Origin: Flavobacterium psychrophilum
GTDB lineage: Bacteria; Bacteroidota; Bacteroidia; Flavobacteriales; Flavobacteriaceae
Reading direction: 5' to 3'
Assembly: GCA_945874225.1 (NCBI GenBank)
Contig: CAMCFT010000003.1
Coordinates: forward strand, 119,541-183,540
DNA: 64,000 nucleotides
Both the position numbers and the translations under genes were made by a program. The notes below the pieces were generated by a model that did no database searches, had not been told where the DNA came from, and worked only from the letters and a program-made list of their open reading frames with translations. Positions 31,138 through 49,303 of this stretch are shown piece by piece; position 1 is the first letter of the stretch; each line of letters starts with the position of its first letter.

Positions 31138-31313
31138 CCCCTAGCCCCCGAAGGGGGAACAGAAAATTTGGGATTTTTGATTGCAGATTAACGATTTTTG
31201 ATTTCAGATTTTTTATCTCGAGAGTCAGCAAATTGTGATAGTATTTCAATTTTAAAAAAAACAACAATGCTCCAGTTTTGGCACCCTCTCCTTTGGAGAG
31301 GGACGGGGAGAGG
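31138..31313. repeat. Inverted pair of GC-rich hairpins between metX-thrA and DUF2007
   Basis: A reverse copy (31138-31160, core CCCCCGAAGGGGG) starts right after the stop codon. A forward copy (31283-31313, core CCCTCTCCTTTGGAGAGGG) lies 13 bases before the next start. Between them lie AT-rich bases with degenerate GATTTTTGATT words and no gene. Confidence 0.7.
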
Positions 31314-31326
31314 AAAAACAATAGTT

Positions 31327-31627: not shown

Positions 31628-32077
31628 ATGAAAATAACATTAAACAGAGTAAACGACAACTTCCACTTCGAATTAAAAAATGATCGTGGACATATAGTAA
31701 ATGTAGATGCCAGACCTGATTTTGGAGGTAACGATATGGGACCAAGTCCAATGGAATTAATTTTAATGGGCGTTGCTGGCTGCAGCGGAATTGATATGAT
31801 TTCGATACTAAAAAAACAACGTCAGGAAATTACGTCTTTCAAAGCTGAGGTTCAAGGCGAACGCGTTCAAGTTGGCGAAGCAAAACCATTCAAAGATATT
31901 TATGTGGTTTTTTATTTAGAAGGAAACATCAAAGAAGATAAAGCAGCAAAAGCAGCCCAATTATCTTTTGAAAAATACTGTTCGGTTTCTAAAACATTGG
32001 AACCAACAGCAACAATACATTATAAAGTAGTTTTGAACGGAAGCCCCCTAACCCCCGAAGGGGGAACTAGCAACTAA
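31628..32077 (+). CDS. OsmC family peroxiredoxin-like protein
   Basis: The 149-residue protein has the two family cysteines at residues 52 (VAGCSGIDM) and 118 (EKYCSVSKTLEPTATI). OsmC proteins reduce organic hydroperoxides with thiols. The last ten residues (SPLTPEGGTS) are encoded by a copy of the GC-rich repeat, which also brings the stop codon, so the natural C-terminus has been replaced or extended. It lies between DUF2007 and the MetB/MetZ-like gene. A role in sulfur redox balance is plausible but inferred. Confidence 0.88.
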   Translation: MKITLNRVNDNFHFELKNDRGHIVNVDARPDFGGNDMGPSPMELILMGVAGCSGIDMISILKKQRQEITSFKAEVQGERVQVGEAKPFKDIYVVFYLEGNIKEDKAAKAAQLSFEKYCSVSKTLEPTATIHYKVVLNGSPLTPEGGTSN

Positions 32078-32160
32078 TAAATAGAAATATTTTTTGCTAA
32101 TTAAAATAAAACAATAACAATCCACTTTCGGCACCACGCCTTGGCGTGGCTGGGGTGAGG
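32043..32160. repeat. Inverted hairpin pair between osmC and the trans-sulfuration gene
   Basis: A reverse copy (32043-32066, core CCCCCGAAGGGGG) overlaps the end of osmC. A forward copy (32131-32160; the arms are changed to CCACGCC/GGCGTGG, so complementarity is kept) precedes the next start by 12 bases. The compensatory change supports selection or mechanism acting on the hairpin. Confidence 0.7.
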
Positions 32161-36397: not shown

Positions 36398-37297
36398 ATG
36401 AGTTCCATATTAAAAACAAATGCTTTAGAAAGCGAAGCGATTTACATATTCAGAGAAGTAATTTCTCAGTTTGACAAACCAGTTTTGCTTTTCTCTGGTG
36501 GAAAAGATTCGATTACATTGGTGCGTTTGGCGCAAAAAGCTTTCTTTCCTGCAAAGATTCCGTTTCCATTGTTACACGTTGACACAGGACACAATTTTCC
36601 TGAAACAATTGAATTTAGAGACAGATTAGTGGCCGAATTAGGTTTGGAATTAATTGTTCGTAATGTACAAGATTCAATCAATGAAGGAAAAGTAATTGAA
36701 GAAACAGGCCGTTATTCAAGCCGAAATATGCTACAAACCACTACACTTTTAGATGCAATTGAAGAATTTAAATTTGATGCTTGCATTGGTGGCGCTCGTC
36801 GTGATGAAGAAAAAGCGAGAGCCAAAGAACGTATTTTTTCGGTTCGTGATGACTTTGGTCAGTGGGACGAAAAAAATCAACGCCCGGAATTATTTGATTT
36901 ATTGAATGGAAAAATTGAAAATGGTCAAAACGTTCGTGTTTTCCCAATTTCGAACTGGACAGAATTAGACGTGTGGAGTTACATCGAACAAGAAGAAATC
37001 GAAATCCCATCAATATATTTTTCACACAAGCGTAAAGTGTTTTTGAGAGACGGTATGATTTGGTCACATTCTCCATTCGTTTACCAAGAAGAAGACGAAG
37101 CTGTCGAAGAAAGAATTGTTCGTTTTAGAACAGTAGGAGATATGAGTTGTACTGCAGCTGTCGAATCGTATGCTGCAACAATTGCAGAGGTAGTTGGCGA
37201 AATCAGGACTTCGACAATTTCAGAAAGAGGCGCCAGAATTGATGATAAACGCTCGGAAGCAGCAATGGAGAAAAGAAAACAACAAGGTTATTTTTAG
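36398..37297 (+). CDS. cysD: Sulfate adenylyltransferase subunit 2
   Basis: The 299-residue subunit forms APS from sulfate and ATP together with the GTPase CysN. The PP-loop is LLFSGGKDSITLVRLAQKA, followed by LLHVDTGHNFPE and the ACIGGARRDEEKARAKER motif. Length matches E. coli CysD. The short upstream gap holds an inverted repeat (AATGATTG at 36343-36350 and CAATCATT at 36370-36377). The gap to cysN holds a mirror pair of GC-rich hairpins. Confidence 0.97.
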   Translation: MSSILKTNALESEAIYIFREVISQFDKPVLLFSGGKDSITLVRLAQKAFFPAKIPFPLLHVDTGHNFPETIEFRDRLVAELGLELIVRNVQDSINEGKVIEETGRYSSRNMLQTTTLLDAIEEFKFDACIGGARRDEEKARAKERIFSVRDDFGQWDEKNQRPELFDLLNGKIENGQNVRVFPISNWTELDVWSYIEQEEIEIPSIYFSHKRKVFLRDGMIWSHSPFVYQEEDEAVEERIVRFRTVGDMSCTAAVESYAATIAEVVGEIRTSTISERGARIDDKRSEAAMEKRKQQGYF

Positions 37298-37300
37298 AAT

Positions 37301-37469
37301 CCTCACCCCAGCCCACTCCAAAGGAGAGGGAGTTGAAACCGGATTAGTATTCGTTTTAATTTTTGGGAAATGAAATGCAAAAAGAGGCAATAAAATAATT
37401 GAATTATAATAAGGTATAACAACATTTCCAGACTCGGCTCCCTCTCCTTCGGAGAGGGCTGGGGTGAGG
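37301..37469. repeat. Mirror pair of GC-rich hairpins between cysD and cysN
   Basis: A reverse copy (37301-37332, starting CCTCACCCCAGCCC) lies three bases after the cysD stop. A forward copy (37435-37469, ending GGGCTGGGGTGAGG) lies 16 bases before the cysN start. Each copy folds on itself, and the two copies could pair with each other over about 30 bases across a 100-base AT-rich loop. Confidence 0.8.
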
Positions 37470-37485
37470 ATAAATTTAAAAGAAT

Positions 37486-38730
37486 ATGGAAGTTTTAAAA
37501 ATAGCAACAGCAGGAAGTGTAGATGATGGAAAGAGCACATTAATCGGACGATTATTGTATGATACAAAATCGTTGACTACCGATAAAATTGAAGCAATAG
37601 AAAGAAGTAGCAAGCAAAAAGGTTATGATTATCTTGATTTCTCATTGGCTACCGACGGTTTGGTTGCTGAGCGTGAACAAGGAATTACGATTGACGTGGC
37701 ACATATTTACTTTTCGACAGCTAAGAAAAGTTACATTATTGCCGATACGCCAGGTCACGTTGAATATACAAGAAATATGGTTACCGGAGCTTCGACATCG
37801 CAAGTTTCAATTATTTTGATTGATGCTCGAAAAGGAGTTATTGAGCAAACCTATCGTCACTTTTTTATCAATAATTTATTGCGTGTAAAAGAAGTGATTG
37901 TTGCAGTAAACAAAATGGATTTGGTTGATTATTCCGAAGAAGTGTACAACAAAATCAAAGCCGATTTTCAAGCCTTGAATGCCAAAAGCACTTTCAAAGA
38001 ACAAGTGGTAAGTTACATTCCTTTAAGTGCTATCAATGGTGGGAATGTGGTGGATAAATCTAAAAATATGCCTTGGTACACTGGACAAACTGTTTTGGAG
38101 CATTTAGAAGGTTTAGAACCAAAAGATGTTTTCGAAAAAGGAGAAGTTCGTTTCCCGGTTCAAACGGTGATCAGACCAAAAACCGAAGAATACCACGATT
38201 TTAGAGGATACGCTGGAAAATTATACGGAAATAACATCAAAGTTGGTGATGCGGTAACCGTGCTTCCTTCATTAACCGAATCGAAAGTTTCGAAAATTCA
38301 CTTTTTCGACAAACAATTTGACGAAGCCACGGCAGGTTCTTCTATAGTTTTAGAATTGGAAAATGACATCAACGTGACTCGCGGAGATATGATTGTAAAA
38401 TCAGGCGAATTGCCAAGAATAGAGAAAGATATCAATACCACAATTTGTTGGATGGATAGCAAAAAGCTGGTAGCAGGAACAAAATACATCGTTCAGCATA
38501 ACACGAATCGTGTTTTGGCCAAAATAGATAGTGTGAAAAATACAATTTCTACTGATTATTCAGGGACAAAAGAAGCGACTCAATTGAGCATTAATGAAAT
38601 CGGCGAAGTCAATATTAAGTTAAGCAAAGCTTTGTATTTTGACGCTTACAATCATAACAAATCAAATGGAGCTTTTATCTTGATAGATGTGGCAACCAAC
38701 ACAACCGCAGGGGTTGGATTTATAAAATAG
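37486..38730 (+). CDS. cysN: Sulfate adenylyltransferase subunit 1 (GTPase)
   Basis: The 414-residue EF-Tu-like GTPase drives APS formation with CysD. G1 is GSVDDGKSTLIGRLLYD, the G3 region DTPGHVEY and G4 NKMD, with the beta-barrel domains following. It has no C-terminal APS kinase domain (no CysC fusion). This agrees with an APS-reducing pathway. It is shorter than E. coli CysN (475) mainly at the ends. Mirror repeats flank it on both sides. Confidence 0.96.
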   Translation: MEVLKIATAGSVDDGKSTLIGRLLYDTKSLTTDKIEAIERSSKQKGYDYLDFSLATDGLVAEREQGITIDVAHIYFSTAKKSYIIADTPGHVEYTRNMVTGASTSQVSIILIDARKGVIEQTYRHFFINNLLRVKEVIVAVNKMDLVDYSEEVYNKIKADFQALNAKSTFKEQVVSYIPLSAINGGNVVDKSKNMPWYTGQTVLEHLEGLEPKDVFEKGEVRFPVQTVIRPKTEEYHDFRGYAGKLYGNNIKVGDAVTVLPSLTESKVSKIHFFDKQFDEATAGSSIVLELENDINVTRGDMIVKSGELPRIEKDINTTICWMDSKKLVAGTKYIVQHNTNRVLAKIDSVKNTISTDYSGTKEATQLSINEIGEVNIKLSKALYFDAYNHNKSNGAFILIDVATNTTAGVGFIK

Positions 38731-38879
38731 TCCCCTCCCCAGCCCTCCCCGAAGGGGAGGGAGCCAAAGCCGGATAAATGTTTGTTTTGAGTTTTGGAAA
38801 TTAGAATAATAAACAAATATTAAAATATAAAAACATATCAGACTCGACACCCCCTCCTTCGGAGGGGGCTGGGGGGAGG
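38731..38879. repeat. Mirror pair of GC-rich hairpins between cysN and sulfite reductase
   Basis: A reverse copy (38731-38765, core CCCTCCCCGAAGGGGAGGG) begins at the base after the cysN stop. A forward copy (38846-38879, core CCCCCTCCTTCGGAGGGGG) ends 15 bases before the next start. The arm sequences differ from the cysD-cysN pair but remain complementary within each copy. Confidence 0.8.
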
Positions 38880-38894
38880 ATCAAAATAGTTTAA

Positions 38895-40985: not shown

Positions 40986-41760
40986 AATTGTAAAACCAAG
41001 AGTAACTTTAGTAGGCGCTGGTCCTGGCGATCCGGATTTGCTTACCATCAAAGGAGCAAAAGCGCTTGCCGATGCCAATGTGGTTTTGTATGATGCTTTG
41101 GCAAACGAAGAAATATTGACGTATGCACCCAAAAAATCCATCAAGATATTTGTTGGAAAAAGAAAAGGTTGTCACGAATATTCGCAAGATCAAATCAATC
41201 AATTGATTGTTGACAATGCGCTGACTTACGGAAATGTGGTGCGACTAAAAGGTGGCGATCCATTTATTTTTGGTCGCGGAAGCGAAGAAATCGAATACAT
41301 TGAAAGTTTCGGAATCCCTACATCTGTTGTTCCAGGAATTTCTTCCTCGATAGCCGTTCCTGCAAATCAGGGAATTTCGTTGACTAAAAGAGGTGTTTCC
41401 GAAAGTTTTTGGGTAATCACTGGCACAACTTCCGACAGAAAATTGTCCAAAGATGTTGCTCTTGCAGCACAATCATCGGCAACTGTCGTGGTTTTGATGG
41501 GAATGAGTAAACTCGAACAAATTGTAGCGCTTTTCCAAAGCGAATCCAAAGGTGAAACTCCGGTTGCAATTATCCAAAACGGAACAATGCCCAACGAAAA
41601 AATAGGAATTGGAACGATAAATTCTATTTCACAAGTCGTAAAAGAAAATAATTTAAGTTCTCCTGCGATTATTGTAATTGGCGAAGTAGTAAGAAAAAGC
41701 AACAAGTTGAAAAATTTCAACGAAAAATTTGCCTCCAATAAAGTTTGCGCAAGAGAATAA
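40978..41760 (+). CDS. cobA: Uroporphyrinogen-III C-methyltransferase
   Basis: The 260-residue enzyme methylates uroporphyrinogen III twice with SAM to give precorrin-2, the first step to siroheme. The motifs VGAGPGDPDLLTIKGAKAL and VVRLKGGDPFIFGRG, and GISSSIAVPANQGISLTKRG are complete. It overlaps the sulfite reductase gene by eight bases and supplies its cofactor together with the following cysG-type gene. Length is normal for the single-domain form. Confidence 0.97.
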   Translation: MNKIVKPRVTLVGAGPGDPDLLTIKGAKALADANVVLYDALANEEILTYAPKKSIKIFVGKRKGCHEYSQDQINQLIVDNALTYGNVVRLKGGDPFIFGRGSEEIEYIESFGIPTSVVPGISSSIAVPANQGISLTKRGVSESFWVITGTTSDRKLSKDVALAAQSSATVVVLMGMSKLEQIVALFQSESKGETPVAIIQNGTMPNEKIGIGTINSISQVVKENNLSSPAIIVIGEVVRKSNKLKNFNEKFASNKVCARE

Positions 41761-41932
41761 TCCCCACCCCAGCCCTCCCCAAAGGAGAGGGAGCTAGGAA
41801 AGGGAAAAAATATGACAAATTCCCAGTTTCACCAGACCTCTTTTAGAGAGGGAAAATAAAATGAAGAAAAACGAGTTACATTCCAACGCTCAAGACTCGG
41901 CTCCCTCTCCTTTGGAGAGGGCCGGGGAGAGG
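41761..41932. repeat. Mirror pair of GC-rich hairpins around the cobA-cysG junction
   Basis: A reverse copy (41761-41795) begins immediately after the cobA stop. The forward copy (41896-41932, core CCCTCTCCTTTGGAGAGGG) lies inside the first codons of the next gene. Confidence 0.8.
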
Positions 41933-42502
41933 AATGAACTATACCCAATTTTCCTAAAACTACACCAACTCAATGTGCTCATTGTTGGTGGAGGAAGCGT
42001 AGGTTTGGAAAAATTATCGTTCTTGTTAAAATCAAGTCCAAATGCCAATGTTGAAGTAGTTGCAATGCATTTTTTACCAGAACTTTTGGCCTTGGCCGAA
42101 AAGCATAATGTAATAATTACCCATTCAAAGTTCAAGAAAAAAATGCTCAAAAAACGACATATGGTTATCGCTTGCACCGATGATTTGAAAGTCAACAAGC
42201 GAGTGTACGATTTATCCAGAAAAAGATACTTGATTTGCAACATCGCAGATACGCCACCATTGTGTGATTTTTATTTAGGCGGAATCGTTACCAAAGGAAA
42301 CGTGAAAATCGCTATTTCTACCAACGGAAAATCACCAACAACTGCCAAAAGATTACGCGAATTCTTCGAAGAAATAATCCCGGACGACATCAATTCAATG
42401 GTCGAAAATCTGAATGAATACCGCAAAACCCTAAAAGGTGATTTTCAGGAGAAAGTTGATAAAATGAACGAAATCACCCAATCGTTAAAGGGCAAACAAT
42501 AA
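41861..42502 (+). CDS. cysG: Precorrin-2 dehydrogenase / sirohydrochlorin ferrochelatase
   Basis: The 213-residue protein corresponds to the N-terminal half of CysG or to yeast Met8: NAD-dependent oxidation of precorrin-2 and iron insertion to make siroheme. The Rossmann motif is VLIVGGGSVGLEKL, followed by VIACTDDLKVNKRVYDL, CNIADTPPLCDFYLGG and IAISTNGKSPTTAKRLREF. Odd: residues about 12-25 (DSAPSPLERAGER) are translated from a GC-rich repeat between a short new start (MKKNELHSNAQ) and the conserved body ELYPIFLKLHQLNV. No other in-frame start is available, so the repeat is really coding. Confidence 0.92.
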   Translation: MKKNELHSNAQDSAPSPLERAGERNELYPIFLKLHQLNVLIVGGGSVGLEKLSFLLKSSPNANVEVVAMHFLPELLALAEKHNVIITHSKFKKKMLKKRHMVIACTDDLKVNKRVYDLSRKRYLICNIADTPPLCDFYLGGIVTKGNVKIAISTNGKSPTTAKRLREFFEEIIPDDINSMVENLNEYRKTLKGDFQEKVDKMNEITQSLKGKQ

Positions 42503-42875: not shown

Positions 42876-43919
42876 ATGTCAAACAACTCAAAAGATACTG
42901 CAGCAACTCCCCCTTCGGGGGTTAGGGTGGCTATTCAAAAACGAATTCTCGTACTCGACGGAGCAATGGGAACGATGTTACAACGCTATAATTTTTCCGA
43001 AGAAGATTTTAGAGGAGAACGTTTCAAAGACTTTCCGTATTCCTTAAAAGGGAATAACGATTTGTTGTCCATAACGCAACCGCAAGCCATTGCAGCTATT
43101 CACGCACAATATTTCGAAGCGGGAGCTGATATTGTCGAAACCAATACATTTTCAGGAACTACAATCGGTATGGCCGATTATCATCTCGAAGATATTGTTT
43201 ACGAATTAAACTTCCAATCGGCAAAAATCGCTCGCGAAGTAGCTGATGAATTTACTGCCAAAAATCCAGAAAAATCTCGTTTTGTTGCCGGTTCAATCGG
43301 ACCAACAAACCGTACAGCAAGTATGTCGCCAGACGTAAACGATCCAGGTTACAGAGCCGTAACTTTCGACGATTTGCGCATTGCTTACAAACAACAAGTC
43401 GAAGCTTTGATTGATGGTGGCGTAGATTTACTTTTGGTCGAAACTATTTTCGATACATTAAATGCAAAAGCTGCTCTTTTCGCCATCGAAGAAGTTAAAG
43501 ACGAACGCAAAATCGATATTCCAATAATGGTCTCAGGAACGATTACTGATGCTTCTGGAAGAACGCTTTCAGGGCAAACCGTCGAAGCTTTCTTGATTTC
43601 GATTTCGCATATTCCGTTGTTGAGCGTAGGTTTCAATTGTGCTCTTGGAGCGCACCAACTGAAACCGTATTTGAAACAATTATCACAAAATACGTCTTTC
43701 AATATTTCGGCGCATCCTAATGCTGGATTGCCAAACGCTTTTGGGCAATACGACGAAACACCAAAAGAAATGCAAACGCAAATCAAGGAATATTTAGACG
43801 AAAATTTAATCAATATTATTGGCGGTTGTTGCGGTACAAATCCAGATCATATTAAATTAATTGCTGAGGTTGCGAAGGATTATAAACCGAGGGTTTCAGA
43901 GGCAACAGTTCAAGAATAG
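42876..43919 (+). CDS. metH: Methionine synthase, homocysteine-binding part
   Basis: The 347-residue protein is the N-terminal module of cobalamin-dependent methionine synthase as a separate chain: [17 protein letters not shown], then the zinc cysteines in [15 protein letters not shown] (about 252) and [17 protein letters not shown] (about 320). It activates homocysteine for methylation by the larger chain encoded at 44758-47841. A split MetH is usual in flavobacteria. Residues about 11-18 (ATPPSGVR) are translated from a GC-rich hairpin repeat just after the start. A SAM-I aptamer controls the transcript. Confidence 0.95.
42907..42932. repeat. GC-rich hairpin repeat inside the metH start region
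   Basis: A forward copy with core CCCCCTTCGGGGG lies at codons 11-19 of the first metH gene and is read in frame without a stop. Confidence 0.7.
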
Positions 43920-43987: not shown

Positions 43988-44749
43988 ATGACAACATTAA
44001 CATATCCAATTATAGTTTTGGTTTTATTTTTACTCGCAAAAATTGTTCCTCATAAACATAAGGTGGATTCTTTAGAAGTAGATTTTATTACCCTTAGAAA
44101 TAAGTATAAAAAATGGGATTTACTTTCAATAATTTTATTGTTTATATTAATGCCTGGAATGACATATTTACTTGGTTTGTTATTTTCAACTATATATTAT
44201 TCACCTGAAAATGAGAACCCTGAAATTATTTATCATATAGCCACAAGTAGATTGATGTGGTTTATGCCGGGACTACTTTTATCTTTTTCCCTTATCAGAT
44301 TTCCAATGACATTTATATATAAACTTATTTTAAAAGAAGATTACAATCAATTTATGTTGTATTCTGATTTAAAAACAGGAGCCGATGGAATGAAAATAAT
44401 GAATTACATTTCTTGGATATCTGGACTAGGTTCGGTTATTTTATTGGTTTTGTTGTCTGATTATTCTGTTGATATTTATAAAGAAAAGATTGTATTAAAT
44501 GATTTTTTAACTTTTTCAAATAAGTCATATTCTTTTTCTGAAATACAATCTATTAATTGTATTCAACCAATAAATCCAAATACAGGCGAGTCTGAAAAAA
44601 CTTCTTATTTTATTAGATTTAAAGATAATGGGCATTGGGATACAGCTAGAGGTCTCGAAGATGATAATAATAGACAAGAAGAAATAATTAATTATTTATC
44701 TGAAAAAACTAAATTAAAAATTAATGCATTGCAGGTGAATCCTGAATAA
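43988..44749 (+). CDS. Hypothetical membrane protein between the two metH genes
   Basis: The 253-residue protein has about four hydrophobic helices (near 3-20, 46-70, 88-108 and 133-152). A soluble C-terminal part follows ([39 protein letters not shown]) that resembles a small PH-like or DUF sensory fold. I do not recognise it. It is visibly more AT-rich than the metH genes around it and ends eight bases before the second one, so it seems inserted into the operon. No link with methionine synthesis is evident. Confidence 0.65.
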
Positions 44750-44757
44750 AACATAAA

Positions 44758-47700
44758 ATGTCAAAAACAAATAAATATTTAAAATTATCAGGTCTTGAAC
44801 CATTAATCATTACGCCAGAAACCAACTTTGTAAACGTTGGTGAAAGAACAAATGTAACCGGTTCCCGAAAATTTTTGCGTCTTATCAAAGAAGAAAAATA
44901 TGCCGAAGCACTAGCTGTGGCTCGTGACCAAGTAGAAGGTGGCGCACAAATCATCGATATCAATATGGATGAAGGAATGCTTGACGGCGTTTATGCAATG
45001 ACCACTTTCTTGAATTTAATCGCTTCGGAACCAGATATTTCTCGAGTTCCTTTGATGATTGACAGTTCGAAATGGGAAATTATCGAAGCCGGTTTGAAAG
45101 TTGCCCAAGGTAAAAGTGTAGTTAATTCTATTTCTTTGAAAGAAGGGGAAGAGCGATTTATTCATCACGCCAAATTGGTGAAACGCTACGGAGCTGCCGT
45201 AATTGTTATGGCTTTCGACGAAAAAGGTCAAGCCGATAACTACGAAAGACGTATCGAAATTTGCAAACGTTCTTATGATATTTTGGTGAATGAAGTGGGT
45301 TTTCCAGCCGAAGACATCATATTCGATCCTAATATTTTTCCTGTTGCCACAGGAATGGACGAACATAAATTAAACGCTTTAGATTTCTTCCGAGCCACAA
45401 AATGGATTAGAGAAAATCTTCCTTATGCGCACGTTTCTGGCGGTGTGAGTAATGTTTCGTTCTCTTTTAGAGGAAATGACACGGTGCGTGAAGCGATGCA
45501 CTCGGCTTTCTTGTATCACGCCATCAAAAACGGAATGACAATGGGAATTGTAAATCCTGAAATGTTGTCAATTTATGACGAAATTCCAAAAGATCTTTTG
45601 GAACACGTTGAAGATGTTTTGTTGAACCGAAGAGAAGATGCCACAGAACGATTATTAGACTTCGCCGAAAATGTAAAAGGCGATGTAAAAGTCAATGAAA
45701 AAGCCGTTCAGGAATGGCGTTCAGGAACCATTCAAGAACGATTAACGCATTCTTTGGTAAGAGGAATTGACGAATTTATAGAATTAGATATTGAAGAAGC
45801 CCGATTAGCAGCTGAAAAACCAATCGAAGTTATTGAAATCAACTTGATGACGGGAATGAATGTGGTGGGAGATTTATTCGGAAGTGGTAAAATGTTTTTG
45901 CCGCAAGTGGTTAAATCGGCACGTGTAATGAAAAAAGCAGTGGCGTATCTTTTGCCTTATATTGAAGCAAGCAAACGCCCCCTAGCCCCCAAAGGGGGAA
46001 TTAAAACGGCGCAACATTGGGAAACCGCGGATCCAATGAATTATGGATTGTTAAAGCAATTTGCATTTGATATGCGAAATATGCCAACTGATGCCGAAAG
46101 GTTTTTGTGGGACGCTTTGAGTGGAAAAAAATTAGAGGGATATAAATTCAGAAGACAACATATAATAGGTAATTATATTGCAGATTTTATTTGTTTAAAA
46201 GAAAATTTGATAATAGAAATAGATGGTCTTATACATCAATTGCCTGAAAATAAAACGAATGACGAAGAAAGAACCAAATGGTTAAATGGCGAAGGATTTC
46301 AAGTTATTCGTTTTACAAATAAGGAAGTTTTGTTTGAACTAGATAAAGTGTTAGATAAAATTGAACTAACATTGGTAGCTCCCCCTTCGGGGGCGGGGGG
46401 GGCTGGAAAAATCCTGATGGCAACCGTAAAAGGTGATGTTCACGACATTGGAAAAAATATTGTTTCAGTGGTTTTGGCTTGCAACAATTACGAAATCATT
46501 GATCTTGGCGTAATGGTTGCTCCAGAGAAAATCATTGCAGCTGCCATTGAACACAACGTAGATATCATTGGATTAAGCGGATTAATCACACCATCTTTGG
46601 ACGAAATGGTTTATTTGGCCAAAGAATTAGACAAGCAAAACGTCAAAATTCCAATAATGATTGGTGGTGCAACAACTTCAAGAGCGCATACCGCCGTGAA
46701 AATTGCGCCTCAATATAGAGAAACCGTGATTCACGTAAACGATGCTTCGAGAGCCGTAACGGTGGCGGGAAATTTATTGAATAGCGATAAAGAAACGTAT
46801 ACCAATTCGATTCGAGTCGAATATGACGCTTTTAGAGAAACTTTTTTGAACCGTTCTCGCGATAAGAATTTCTTGACCATTGAGCAAGCGCGTGTCAATA
46901 AATTAAAATTAGATTGGGAAAATTATAACCCAAAGAAACCCAATTTTATTGGAACAAAAACCATCGAAGTCGATTTGGATGTGTTGGTTCCTTATATTGA
47001 CTGGACTCCGTTTTTCAGAACTTGGGAATTGTTCGGGAAATATCCTGCGATTCTGACTGATGCGGTTGTGGGCGAACAAGCGCACTCCGTTTTTCACGAT
47101 GCTCAAGAAATGTTGAAGGTTATTTTGAAAGAAAAGAGACTTACCGCCAAAGGAATTTACGGAATTTTCCCGGCGAATACAATAAATGATGATGATATTG
47201 AGCTTTTGCCAACAACAGATAACCGACAACCGATAACCTTTCTCACTTTACGTCAGCAAGCTCAAAAAACAAAAGGGGCTCCAAATATAGCTTTGGCTGA
47301 TTTTATTGCTCCAAAAGAAAGCGGGAAAACCGATTATATGGGCGCTTTTTGTGTAACTACAGGTTTTGGAGTTGATGAATGGGCAGCCGAATTCGAAAAA
47401 GATTTGGATGATTATAATTCGATTATGGTCAAAGCATTGGCAGACCGTTTTGCAGAAGCATTCGCCGAATATTTACACGAAAAAGTGCGAAAAGAAATTT
47501 GGGGTTATGCATCAGATGAGGTTTTATCAACAGAAGCATTAATAGAAGAAATCTACAAAGGAATTCGCCCAGCACCAGGTTATCCGGCTTGTCCTGACCA
47601 TTTAGAAAAACCAACAATTTGGAAATTGCTAAATGTAGAACAAGAAATTGGAGTAACTTTGACCGAAAGTATGGCAATGTGGCCAGCTTCATCGGTTTCT

Positions 47701-47841
47701 GGATATTATTTTGGAAACCCTGAAAGCAAGTATTTTGGACTCGGAAAAATAAAAGAAGACCAAGTTGTAGATTACGCCAAACGAAGAAGTATCCCAACGG
47801 AAACTGCCGTGAAATGGTTGAATCCTAATATAGCAGACTAG
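44758..47841 (+). CDS. metH: Methionine synthase, folate/cobalamin/activation part with inserted DUF559 domain
   Basis: The 1027-residue chain carries the remaining MetH modules. The pterin-binding barrel ([18 protein letters not shown], residues about 20-270) is first. The cap helices (about 330-406) follow, then the B12 domain with the Dx-HxxG loop [17 protein letters not shown] and [16 protein letters not shown]. The SAM-dependent activation domain (about 770-1027; [15 protein letters not shown]) ends it. Between cap and B12 domain, residues about 407-550 are foreign: a DUF559 endonuclease domain bounded by GC-rich repeats. Without it the chain is about 885 residues, as expected. Frame and all catalytic motifs are intact, so the enzyme may still work. 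Confidence 0.95.
45976..46406 (+). mobile_element. In-frame DUF559 endonuclease insertion bounded by inverted GC-rich hairpins
   Basis: The left end (45978-45998) reads CCCCCTAG then CCCCCAAAGGGGG. The right end (46379-46406) is its inverse, CCCCCTTCGGGGG followed by GGCTGG. Between them about 120 codons encode a DUF559/VSR-like PD-(D/E)XK nuclease: [46 protein letters not shown], then [20 protein letters not shown]. The probable catalytic Asp (ADF) and Glu (IEIDG) are kept. Neither stop nor frameshift exists, so it is translated within MetH. It looks like a small selfish unit tolerated in a domain linker. Mobility is inferred. Confidence 0.7.
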
Positions 47842-47853
47842 GTTTTTGTTGTT

Positions 47854-48338
47854 AGTTGATGGTTGTCAGATTAAAATCGGAATCAACATCTACAATAATT
47901 AGAAAGGAAATAAATTATGGAGTACAATAAATTAGAAGTTTGGATAGAAGCTAGAAAACTAGTTAATTTATTGTACGATTCATCCAAATTATTCCCAAAA
48001 GAGGAATTGTTTGGTTTGACAAATCAAATGCGAAGAGCTGTTGTTTCGATACCTTCGAACATTGCTGAAGGCTGTGGACGCCAAACATCTAAAGACACAT
48101 TGCATTTTTTGCATATTTCAAGAGGTTCTTTATATGAATTAGAAACTCAATATTATTTAGCTTTTGATCAGAAATATATTGATATTAATAATTTTAATAT
48201 TGCTTTTGAACAGATTCAGATTTGTAAAAAATTAATAAATGGGTTTATAAACTATTATAAAAATAAAATTTAGTTGATGGTAAATAGTTGTTTGTTTTAG
48301 CATTAGGACCATCAACTATCAACCATCAACCATCAACT
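47854..48338. mobile_element. Inverted-repeat unit carrying a four-helix-bundle gene between metH and metF
   Basis: Perfect 12-base arms AGTTGATGGTTG (47854-47865) and CAACCATCAACT (48327-48338) enclose one gene. The right side has further copies of the word (CCATCAAC repeated three times at 48309-48338, and an opposite GTTGATGGT at 48273-48281). The unit fills the whole gap from 13 bases after metH to 8 bases before metF. Confidence 0.6.
47917..48273 (+). CDS. Four-helix-bundle (S23/IVS-type) protein
   Basis: The 118-residue all-helical protein matches the family first found inside intervening sequences of 23S rRNA genes: LEVWIEARKLVNLLYDSSKL, then QMRRAVVSIPSNIAEGCGRQ, then FLHISRGSLYELETQYYLA. 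These form pentamers of four-helix bundles. The molecular role is unknown. Here it lies in a protein-coding operon between metH and metF, enclosed by inverted repeats. A second, divergent member is at 61200-61556. Confidence 0.9.
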   Translation: MEYNKLEVWIEARKLVNLLYDSSKLFPKEELFGLTNQMRRAVVSIPSNIAEGCGRQTSKDTLHFLHISRGSLYELETQYYLAFDQKYIDINNFNIAFEQIQICKKLINGFINYYKNKI

Positions 48339-48346
48339 TTAGTAAA

Positions 48347-49303
48347 ATGAAAGTAACAGAACATATAGAAGACGCACAAGGAAAAACATTGTTTTCTTTC
48401 GAAATTATTCCGCCACAAAAAGGGAAAAGCATTCAGGAATTATACGACAATATTGATCCGTTGATGGAGTTCAAACCGCCTTTTATAGACGTGACAACTT
48501 CGCGTGAAGAATATATTTATGTGGATAAAGGCAACGGTTTATTGGATAAAAAATTGACCAGAATGCGTCCAGGAACTTTGGGAATTTGTGCTTCCATAAA
48601 ACATAAATATTCTGTTGATACCGTTCCTCACGTGCTTTGCGGAGGTTTTACAAAAGAGGAAACTGAGTATTTATTAGTAGATTGTCATTATTTAGGAATT
48701 AATAATGTAATGGCTTTGCGCGGTGATGCAATGAAAGATGAGCAATCTTTTGTAGCAAAAGAAGGCGGTAATAATTACGCGGTAGACTTGGTTAAACAAA
48801 TCCACCAATTGAATCAAGGGAAGTATTTACACGATGTAATGCACATTGACAACAAAGCTGATTTTTGCATTGGTGTTGCTGGTTATCCGGAGAAACACTT
48901 AGAGTCTCCATCCTTGATTTCGGACTTAAAAAGGCTGAAAGAAAAAGTGGATGCCGGTGCGGATTATGTAGTTACCCAAATGTTTTTTGACAATGCTAAA
49001 TACTTTGAATTTGTTGCCAAAGCCAGAGAAATAGGTATAGCAGTTCCAATTATTCCGGGAATCAAACCAATAGCTGTACAAAGACATTTGCAAATTTTGC
49101 CACAAATTTTCCGAATCGACTTGCCGGAAGATTTAATTCACGCTATCGAGAAATGCAAATCTCCTGCCGATATCAAACAAGTAGGAGTGGAATGGGCTAT
49201 TCAACAATCGCTAGAATTGAAAGCTTCCGGCGTTCCTGTTTTGCATTATTATTCTATGGGAAAGTCTGAAAATATTAGACAAATAGCGAGTAAAGTTTTT
49301 TAG
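48347..49303 (+). CDS. metF: 5,10-Methylenetetrahydrofolate reductase
   Basis: The 318-residue flavoprotein reduces methylene-THF to methyl-THF, the methyl donor for MetH. The N-terminal SFEIIPPQKG, the FAD region NNVMALRGD, AGYPEKHLESPSLISDLKRL and the substrate-site VTQMFFDNAKYF are all in place. It is the last gene of the methionine cluster. It is followed by a perfect 13-bp hairpin that could end the transcript. Confidence 0.96.
   Translation: MKVTEHIEDAQGKTLFSFEIIPPQKGKSIQELYDNIDPLMEFKPPFIDVTTSREEYIYVDKGNGLLDKKLTRMRPGTLGICASIKHKYSVDTVPHVLCGGFTKEETEYLLVDCHYLGINNVMALRGDAMKDEQSFVAKEGGNNYAVDLVKQIHQLNQGKYLHDVMHIDNKADFCIGVAGYPEKHLESPSLISDLKRLKEKVDAGADYVVTQMFFDNAKYFEFVAKAREIGIAVPIIPGIKPIAVQRHLQILPQIFRIDLPEDLIHAIEKCKSPADIKQVGVEWAIQQSLELKASGVPVLHYYSMGKSENIRQIASKVF

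Follow-up and report, generated by a model that had tools for sequence, protein, structure and literature searches.

Homing elements that reside in coding genes are thought to require an intein or an intron, by which the host product is restored. How, then, does a nuclease segment come to lie inside the methionine synthase gene metH of Flavobacterium psychrophilum, where no splicing element was found? The gene is carried by a stretch of 64,000 nucleotides (assembly GCA_945874225.1, contig CAMCFT010000003.1, positions 119,541 to 183,540), hereafter the window, whose own numbering is used below. Comparison with related genes and genomes suggests that the insert is probably one member of a family of mobile elements of about 0.43 kb that home in frame into conserved proteins.

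The host gene codes for the C-terminal part of MetH (pterin-binding, cap, B12-binding and activation domains) and lies on the forward strand at 44758..47841, as an open reading frame of 1027 amino acids with zero internal stops. Pfam recognised Pterin_bind at residues 28-266, B12-binding_2 (the cap) at 326-398, DUF559 at 433-538, B12-binding at 550-641 and Met_synt_B12 at 739-1010. An earlier interpretation made from the letters of the window (the sequence-only reading) had placed a DUF559 nuclease in frame and without stop between the cap and the B12-binding domain, and this arrangement was recovered. Comparison with empty alleles bounds the insert to about 144 residues (407-550; 45976..46407, forward strand), within a few codons, as some eight linker residues are swapped out. 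The closest empty allele, P0121, has 891 amino acids; the net gain of 136 residues is smaller than the insert because the latter takes the place of about eight linker residues, QVGDKQGN, kept in the empty allele. The AlphaFold model of the whole fused protein was poor (mean pLDDT 65.3, 32 sequences), and all that was taken from it is a pLDDT below 50 for residues 407-415 and 542-548.

The nuclease domain itself (PF04480; 46054..46371, forward strand) spans about 105 amino acids and matches DUF559 with 120.5 bits against a curated cut-off of 20.6 (E 9.8e-34), and its conserved E, D, E, D and H residues are kept. A search with PADLOC gave zero matches at E 0.01. The predicted fold of the domain agrees with the catalytic domain of I-Bth0305I, an EDxHD or Vsr-like homing endonuclease, a likeness extended by site-faithful spread (see below). 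Residues E15, D44, E55, D57 and H61 occur together in 61 of 65 copies lying in host genes and in all 42 free-standing ones, in a domain numbering that is not aligned residue by residue with I-Bth0305I. A DUF559 gene is assigned to the EDxHD family in a genome paper (PMC9403480), and a review (PMC3943268) describes EDxHD homing endonucleases as phage-derived enzymes that have long targets and extended additional regions for DNA binding. The MetH nuclease differs from these in its small size and in lying in frame in a host protein.

The segment could instead be a cryptic intein, intron or bypass element, removed or skipped at the protein or RNA level, and the hairpins at both of its ends, described below, resemble what is generally known of excised or bypassed elements. 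Against this, the reading frame is uninterrupted and its coding sequence conserved, and the junction residues are Arg407 and Gly550-Lys551. Pfam returned no intein domain at E 0.001, and Rfam no group I or group II intron or other structured RNA at the gathering threshold in 44700-48400, the absence of a match being no proof in either search. We regard such removal as highly improbable. The insert is like inteins with homing endonuclease domains in bringing an in-frame nuclease into conserved genes, in occupying several sites per gene, in having empty and filled alleles and in decaying; it is unlike them in that no splicing domain was found and the product apparently remains fused.

Evidence for mobility comes from the relatives. 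In the best 80 of at least 596 MetH matches, the cap/B12 linker is filled in only six (L011, L016, L039, L046, L059 and L072) and L062 carries DUF559 elsewhere within MetH, while the top match (L001, with 96% identity in residues 1-406) is empty. Likewise, DUF559 was present in eight of the 120 MetH proteins nearest to residues 1-395 (best 120 of 8000 scored). The nuclease is thus absent from many relatives, and its presence in every one of them, which would have refuted the sequence-only reading, was not seen. When linkers and inserts are excluded, several hosts remain nearly identical to that of the window and differ in occupancy: P0121 (843/864) is empty; P0122 (840/864) has an empty cap/B12 linker and a filled one before the activation domain; P0011 (834/864) is filled by an insert 96% like that of the window; and P0132 (833/863) is filled at the cap/B12 linker by an element only 51% identical, with a different left boundary. 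In P0154 (801/863), the second linker holds just both ends of an element, still in frame, with the nuclease gone, which reads as a remnant of internal deletion. These comparisons establish, at the level of sequence, presence in frame, gain or loss between near-identical alleles and repeated independent occupancy of one linker. In keeping with homing, filled and empty alleles occur at one fixed site and the lineages are site-faithful. Two other observations concern the second linker: in the window (47190-47260) it is read from a CAACAAC-rich stretch where the empty P0121 has VRDESGKLLEK, possibly another in-frame repeat remnant, and in P0132 it contains SVIPSVSSRAQSRDEGQPITF, apparently an in-frame copy from another family of palindromic repeats, one that we presume rather than identify.

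The same nuclease is found in other hosts. A DUF559 match was present in 80 of 150 genomes of the genus; 104 rows score above 75 bits, and 44 are weak, with less than 40 bits. Every strong row except G045:C32, which has stops, entered the census, together with two weak ones (L085 and L086), the window copy and seven MetH loci, giving 111 distinct domains (126 before identical copies were dropped). These lie in the MetH cap/B12 linker (22), the second MetH linker (6), a third MetH site (1), LeuRS (17), an AddA/RecB-like helicase (11), RecG (8) and a type ISP restriction enzyme (4), or are free-standing (42); the 150 genomes alone account for 103 of them, 61 in host genes and 42 free-standing. 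Pfam agreed with the host identity for the representatives checked. The best 120 of 1331 matches in a protein search add MetRS and IleRS with two sites each (names as given by the source and by Pfam), together with sites inside the MetH homocysteine domain. In a sample of the phylum, 82 of 158 genomes had a DUF559 match, and the long-frame copies that were read lie, as judged from the flanks, in MetH, in RecG, in hosts of restriction type and in LeuRS, where a second site is used as well. In nearly all in-host copies the frame continues into the host at either end for as long as there is sequence to read, a result that is partly self-fulfilling, as long open frames served to recognise such copies. 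One free-standing copy (L115) has an internal stop.

In a tree of the 111 domains, host-site labels change 11 times against a shuffled mean of 62.6, and in a tree of 306 domains 38 times against 153.6, although with just 104 columns many forks are unresolved. RecG copies form one group and AddA copies another; two cap-linker copies (L087 and L088) nest among second-linker copies, a site switch; and free-standing genes mostly belong to lineages apart from the in-host copies. Decayed copies exist, the nuclease coding sequence being otherwise conserved. As far as trees and alignments tell, clades of the family mostly keep to one site and switch only occasionally, the nuclease is conserved, and decay takes place in frame. 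Among 129 MetH sequences filled at the cap/B12 linker, hosts 90-93% identical can carry inserts only 50-55% identical, and hosts 60% identical can carry inserts 74% identical. Among 449 same-site pairs, 260 of which have at least 15 usable silent sites in the insert, there are two (L103/L120 and L135/L114) in which, after Bonferroni correction, the insert is younger than its host, and a single pair (L122/L132) in which it either predates that of the partner or is not related to it. Read from silent sites, recent transfer holds for a few pairs, the remaining ones being uninformative at this level.

Such patterns also bear on the proposal that DUF559 is an accessory domain of use to the host, for example in MetH regulation, spread by ordinary homologous recombination and not selfish. 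The domain is conserved and placed in interdomain linkers, and the identity of the insert correlates with that of the host (r 0.60 over the 129 MetH sequences filled at the cap/B12 linker), as this proposal would have it. The occurrence of one nuclease family inside unrelated proteins, the near-identical alleles that do without it and the decayed copies speak against it, and we consider it improbable.

Both ends of the insert carry GC-rich hairpins, as the sequence-only reading had described. The left end (45977..45999, forward strand) consists of an outward C-run tail and the hairpin CCCCC(AAA)GGGGG, with its stem at 45986-45998, read as PLAPKGG (RPLAPKGG with the junction arginine); the right end (46377..46404, forward strand) is the hairpin CCCCC(TTC)GGGGG, with its stem at 46381-46393, followed by an outward G-run tail and read as APPSGAGGA. 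Because the C-run and G-run tails face outwards on either side, the ends are inverted repeats, and both translate without stop. Folded as single RNA strands they are not unusually stable (z of -0.53 and -1.73). Under a strict rule (a GC-rich stem of at least 5, an outward C or G run, proximity to the domain), hairpins stood at both ends of 36 of 69 in-host copies, 2 of 42 free-standing ones and none of 586 displaced windows, so that their pairing with DUF559 is above chance. At least one end was found in 55 of the 69, the displaced windows showed a single end 4 and 6 times, and the four type ISP copies had none. The expectation that hairpins accompany other DUF559 loci fails for the free-standing ones, 40 of 42 of which lack both and which are mostly separate lineages.

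The hairpin class CCCCCNAAGGGGGARY is present in 51 of the 150 genomes. In a tally made by hand, in which each in-host element of the class had as many as two hairpins subtracted and type ISP was left out, it occurred in 28 of the 42 genomes that carry in-host DUF559, compared with 18 of the 108 others (Fisher p 8e-9), and in only 4 of 18 having solely free-standing DUF559 (Fisher p 0.002 against in-host genomes). Hairpin class and in-host nuclease go together across genomes, which is an association only, since genomes are not independent.

Inverted hairpin pairs also occur in the window without a nuclease, at 31138..31315 (a gene junction, with ends of two different hairpin classes), 32045..32160, 37295..37471 (with CAGACTCGGCTCCC at its right end, as in some LeuRS and AddA DUF559 elements), 38726..38881 (with a degenerate copy at the same junction in L227) and 41756..41934. 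Some share a subterminal motif with LeuRS and AddA elements of other genomes. At the right end, 5 or 6 of the 6 bases of this motif are found in 4 of 14 LeuRS, 4 of 7 AddA, 1 of 19 MetH site 1 and 0 of 6 RecG elements, and as a general rule the common motif is weak. The sequence-only reading had taken the hairpins of the cluster for non-autonomous derivatives of the nuclease unit. The existence of such pairs, the motif common to some of them and the P0154 remnant lend it support, but most pairs of the window differ in hairpin class from its MetH element, and one genome (G057) has 24 hairpins of the MetH-element class with zero DUF559 match, so the claim stands only in part. At two gene junctions (37295-38881 in the window; loci L227-L256), relatives hold differing inverted-repeat families, namely GC hairpins, a GTTGATGG type and a AGCTTTTAGCC type, and the left repeat half often lies directly 3' of a stop codon. 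Next to the pair at 38726-38881 lies a repeat of 8 bases, which was considered as a target duplication and dropped, the junctions in 30 relatives giving no support.

These pairs, which are also found in relatives, the hairpins of G057 and the subterminal sequence common to some pairs and DUF559 elements would suit hairpin-driven transposition, in which the inverted hairpins are real mobile ends, like those of bacterial interspersed mosaic elements (BIME) or miniature inverted-repeat transposable elements, moved by an enzyme in trans, with DUF559 as cargo or helper. Tyrosine transposases, the only ones compared, do not track the hairpins; in 12 genomes chosen by hairpin count Y1_Tnp matches number 3, 4, 4, 1, 1 and 2 in hairpin-bearing G015, G057, G063, G139, G106 and G033 (the one of G139 and both of G033 weak) and 5, 7, 4, 0, 0 and 1 in hairpin-free G053, G043, G058, G012, G013 and G014. 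Among 30 loci that were read, with up to six hairpins considered for each, the MetH hairpin class was seen solely at L219, about 1.2 kb from the transposase, and the remaining loci show other hairpin families. Free movement, moreover, would not yield site-faithful clades, and we hold transposition to be unlikely. In their GC hairpins, inverted pairs and high copy number in some genomes, the elements are like repetitive extragenic palindromes (REP) and BIME with RAYT transposases; they are unlike them in the lack of association with tyrosine transposases. Conserved REP tags are not a feature of MetH elements (GTAG near the inner end in 6/25 right and 2/20 left ends; CGTC in 0/25 and 0/20), while CGTC lies just inside the hairpin in 5/7 right and 3/3 left ends of AddA elements, reminiscent of CGTC-tagged repeats, so that subgroup may have REP kinship.

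Several results weigh against homing in frame as the explanation. No target-site duplication was found. Within the insert Pfam recognised DUF559 and the overlapping MTES_1575 alone, and the 144 residues, unlike described EDxHD homing enzymes, hold no recognised extra DNA-binding domain by which a site would be chosen; recognition might fall to the host protein or to a partner. The correlation of host and insert identities means that part of the spread may be vertical. Of six profiled pairs, only two (L103/L120 and L135/L114) show a clear drop in identity away from the insert, and on one side, which is only suggestive of co-conversion; in a pooled set of 20 filled MetH genes and those of 43 empty ones numbered up to L028, four-fold identity near the site is alike for full-full and empty-empty pairs, with no clear co-conversion. 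To these are added the hairpins of G057, seven in-host copies that end at a contig or locus edge, where the frame on one side is not judgeable, and L118 (second MetH linker), in which the host frame is shifted at the left hairpin. The shift, just upstream of DUF559, means either that this copy is broken or that a homopolymer was misread in sequencing.

Homing in frame nevertheless accounts best for the whole. The unit would be a DUF559 segment of Vsr/EDxHD fold between inverted GC-rich hairpin ends without stops, occupying linkers or loops of conserved housekeeping proteins. Its translation would give the host protein an additional, tolerated domain; in this fused form the nuclease would break or nick an empty allele, into which recombination would then copy the filled one. 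The hairpins, as element ends, may be recognised by an enzyme or may simply be stop-free flexible linkers. The idea of a selfish nuclease that follows the logic of homing without splicing is well supported in its core by near-identical alleles differing in occupancy, site-faithful clades, several host genes and the absence of an intein or intron match; its extension to the hairpin cluster is the part that stood only partially.

In way of life, if not in kinship, the units recall Rickettsia palindromic elements (RPE), short palindromes of about 150 bp lying in frame in unrelated genes and co-translated, for which the excerpt available mentions no nuclease (PMC10969869). By that description, the DUF559 units are set apart by a conserved nuclease and by lineages that revisit the same sites. 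The arrangement may be a form of homing element, or perhaps a class in its own right. We lean slightly towards a splicing-free homing class with a minimal EDxHD-fold nuclease, stop-free hairpin ends, a permanent extra domain in linkers of essential proteins, elements competing for one linker and in-frame mini-elements after nuclease loss. Among the top-ranked papers of a search of largely open-access literature, no account of in-frame DUF559 elements was recognised, which is not proof of absence.

The surroundings of metH hold other features. Between metH and metF (47848-48338) lies a four-helix-bundle gene (23S rRNA IVP, PF05635) with inverted GTTGATGGTTG / CAACCATCAAC ends; because just 1 of 19 relatives having metH then metF carries it (L013, 93% identical), it looks like another cargo-bearing inverted-repeat element. 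Upstream, an open reading frame of 253 amino acids (43988-44749) with the look of a membrane protein separates the two MetH genes, and the MetH homocysteine-domain gene begins with a hairpin-encoded peptide, TPPSGVR (42876-42940), as though an element end had given its N-terminus.

Natural filled and empty alleles with more than 96% host identity make a direct test possible. A nuclease of homing fold appears to enter essential enzymes such as tRNA synthetases, methionine synthase and RecG, and to remain in the product. If true, this would broaden the definition of a homing element, account for proteins that pipelines label as DUF559 fusions and provide a route by which selfish DNA adds whole domains to essential proteins.
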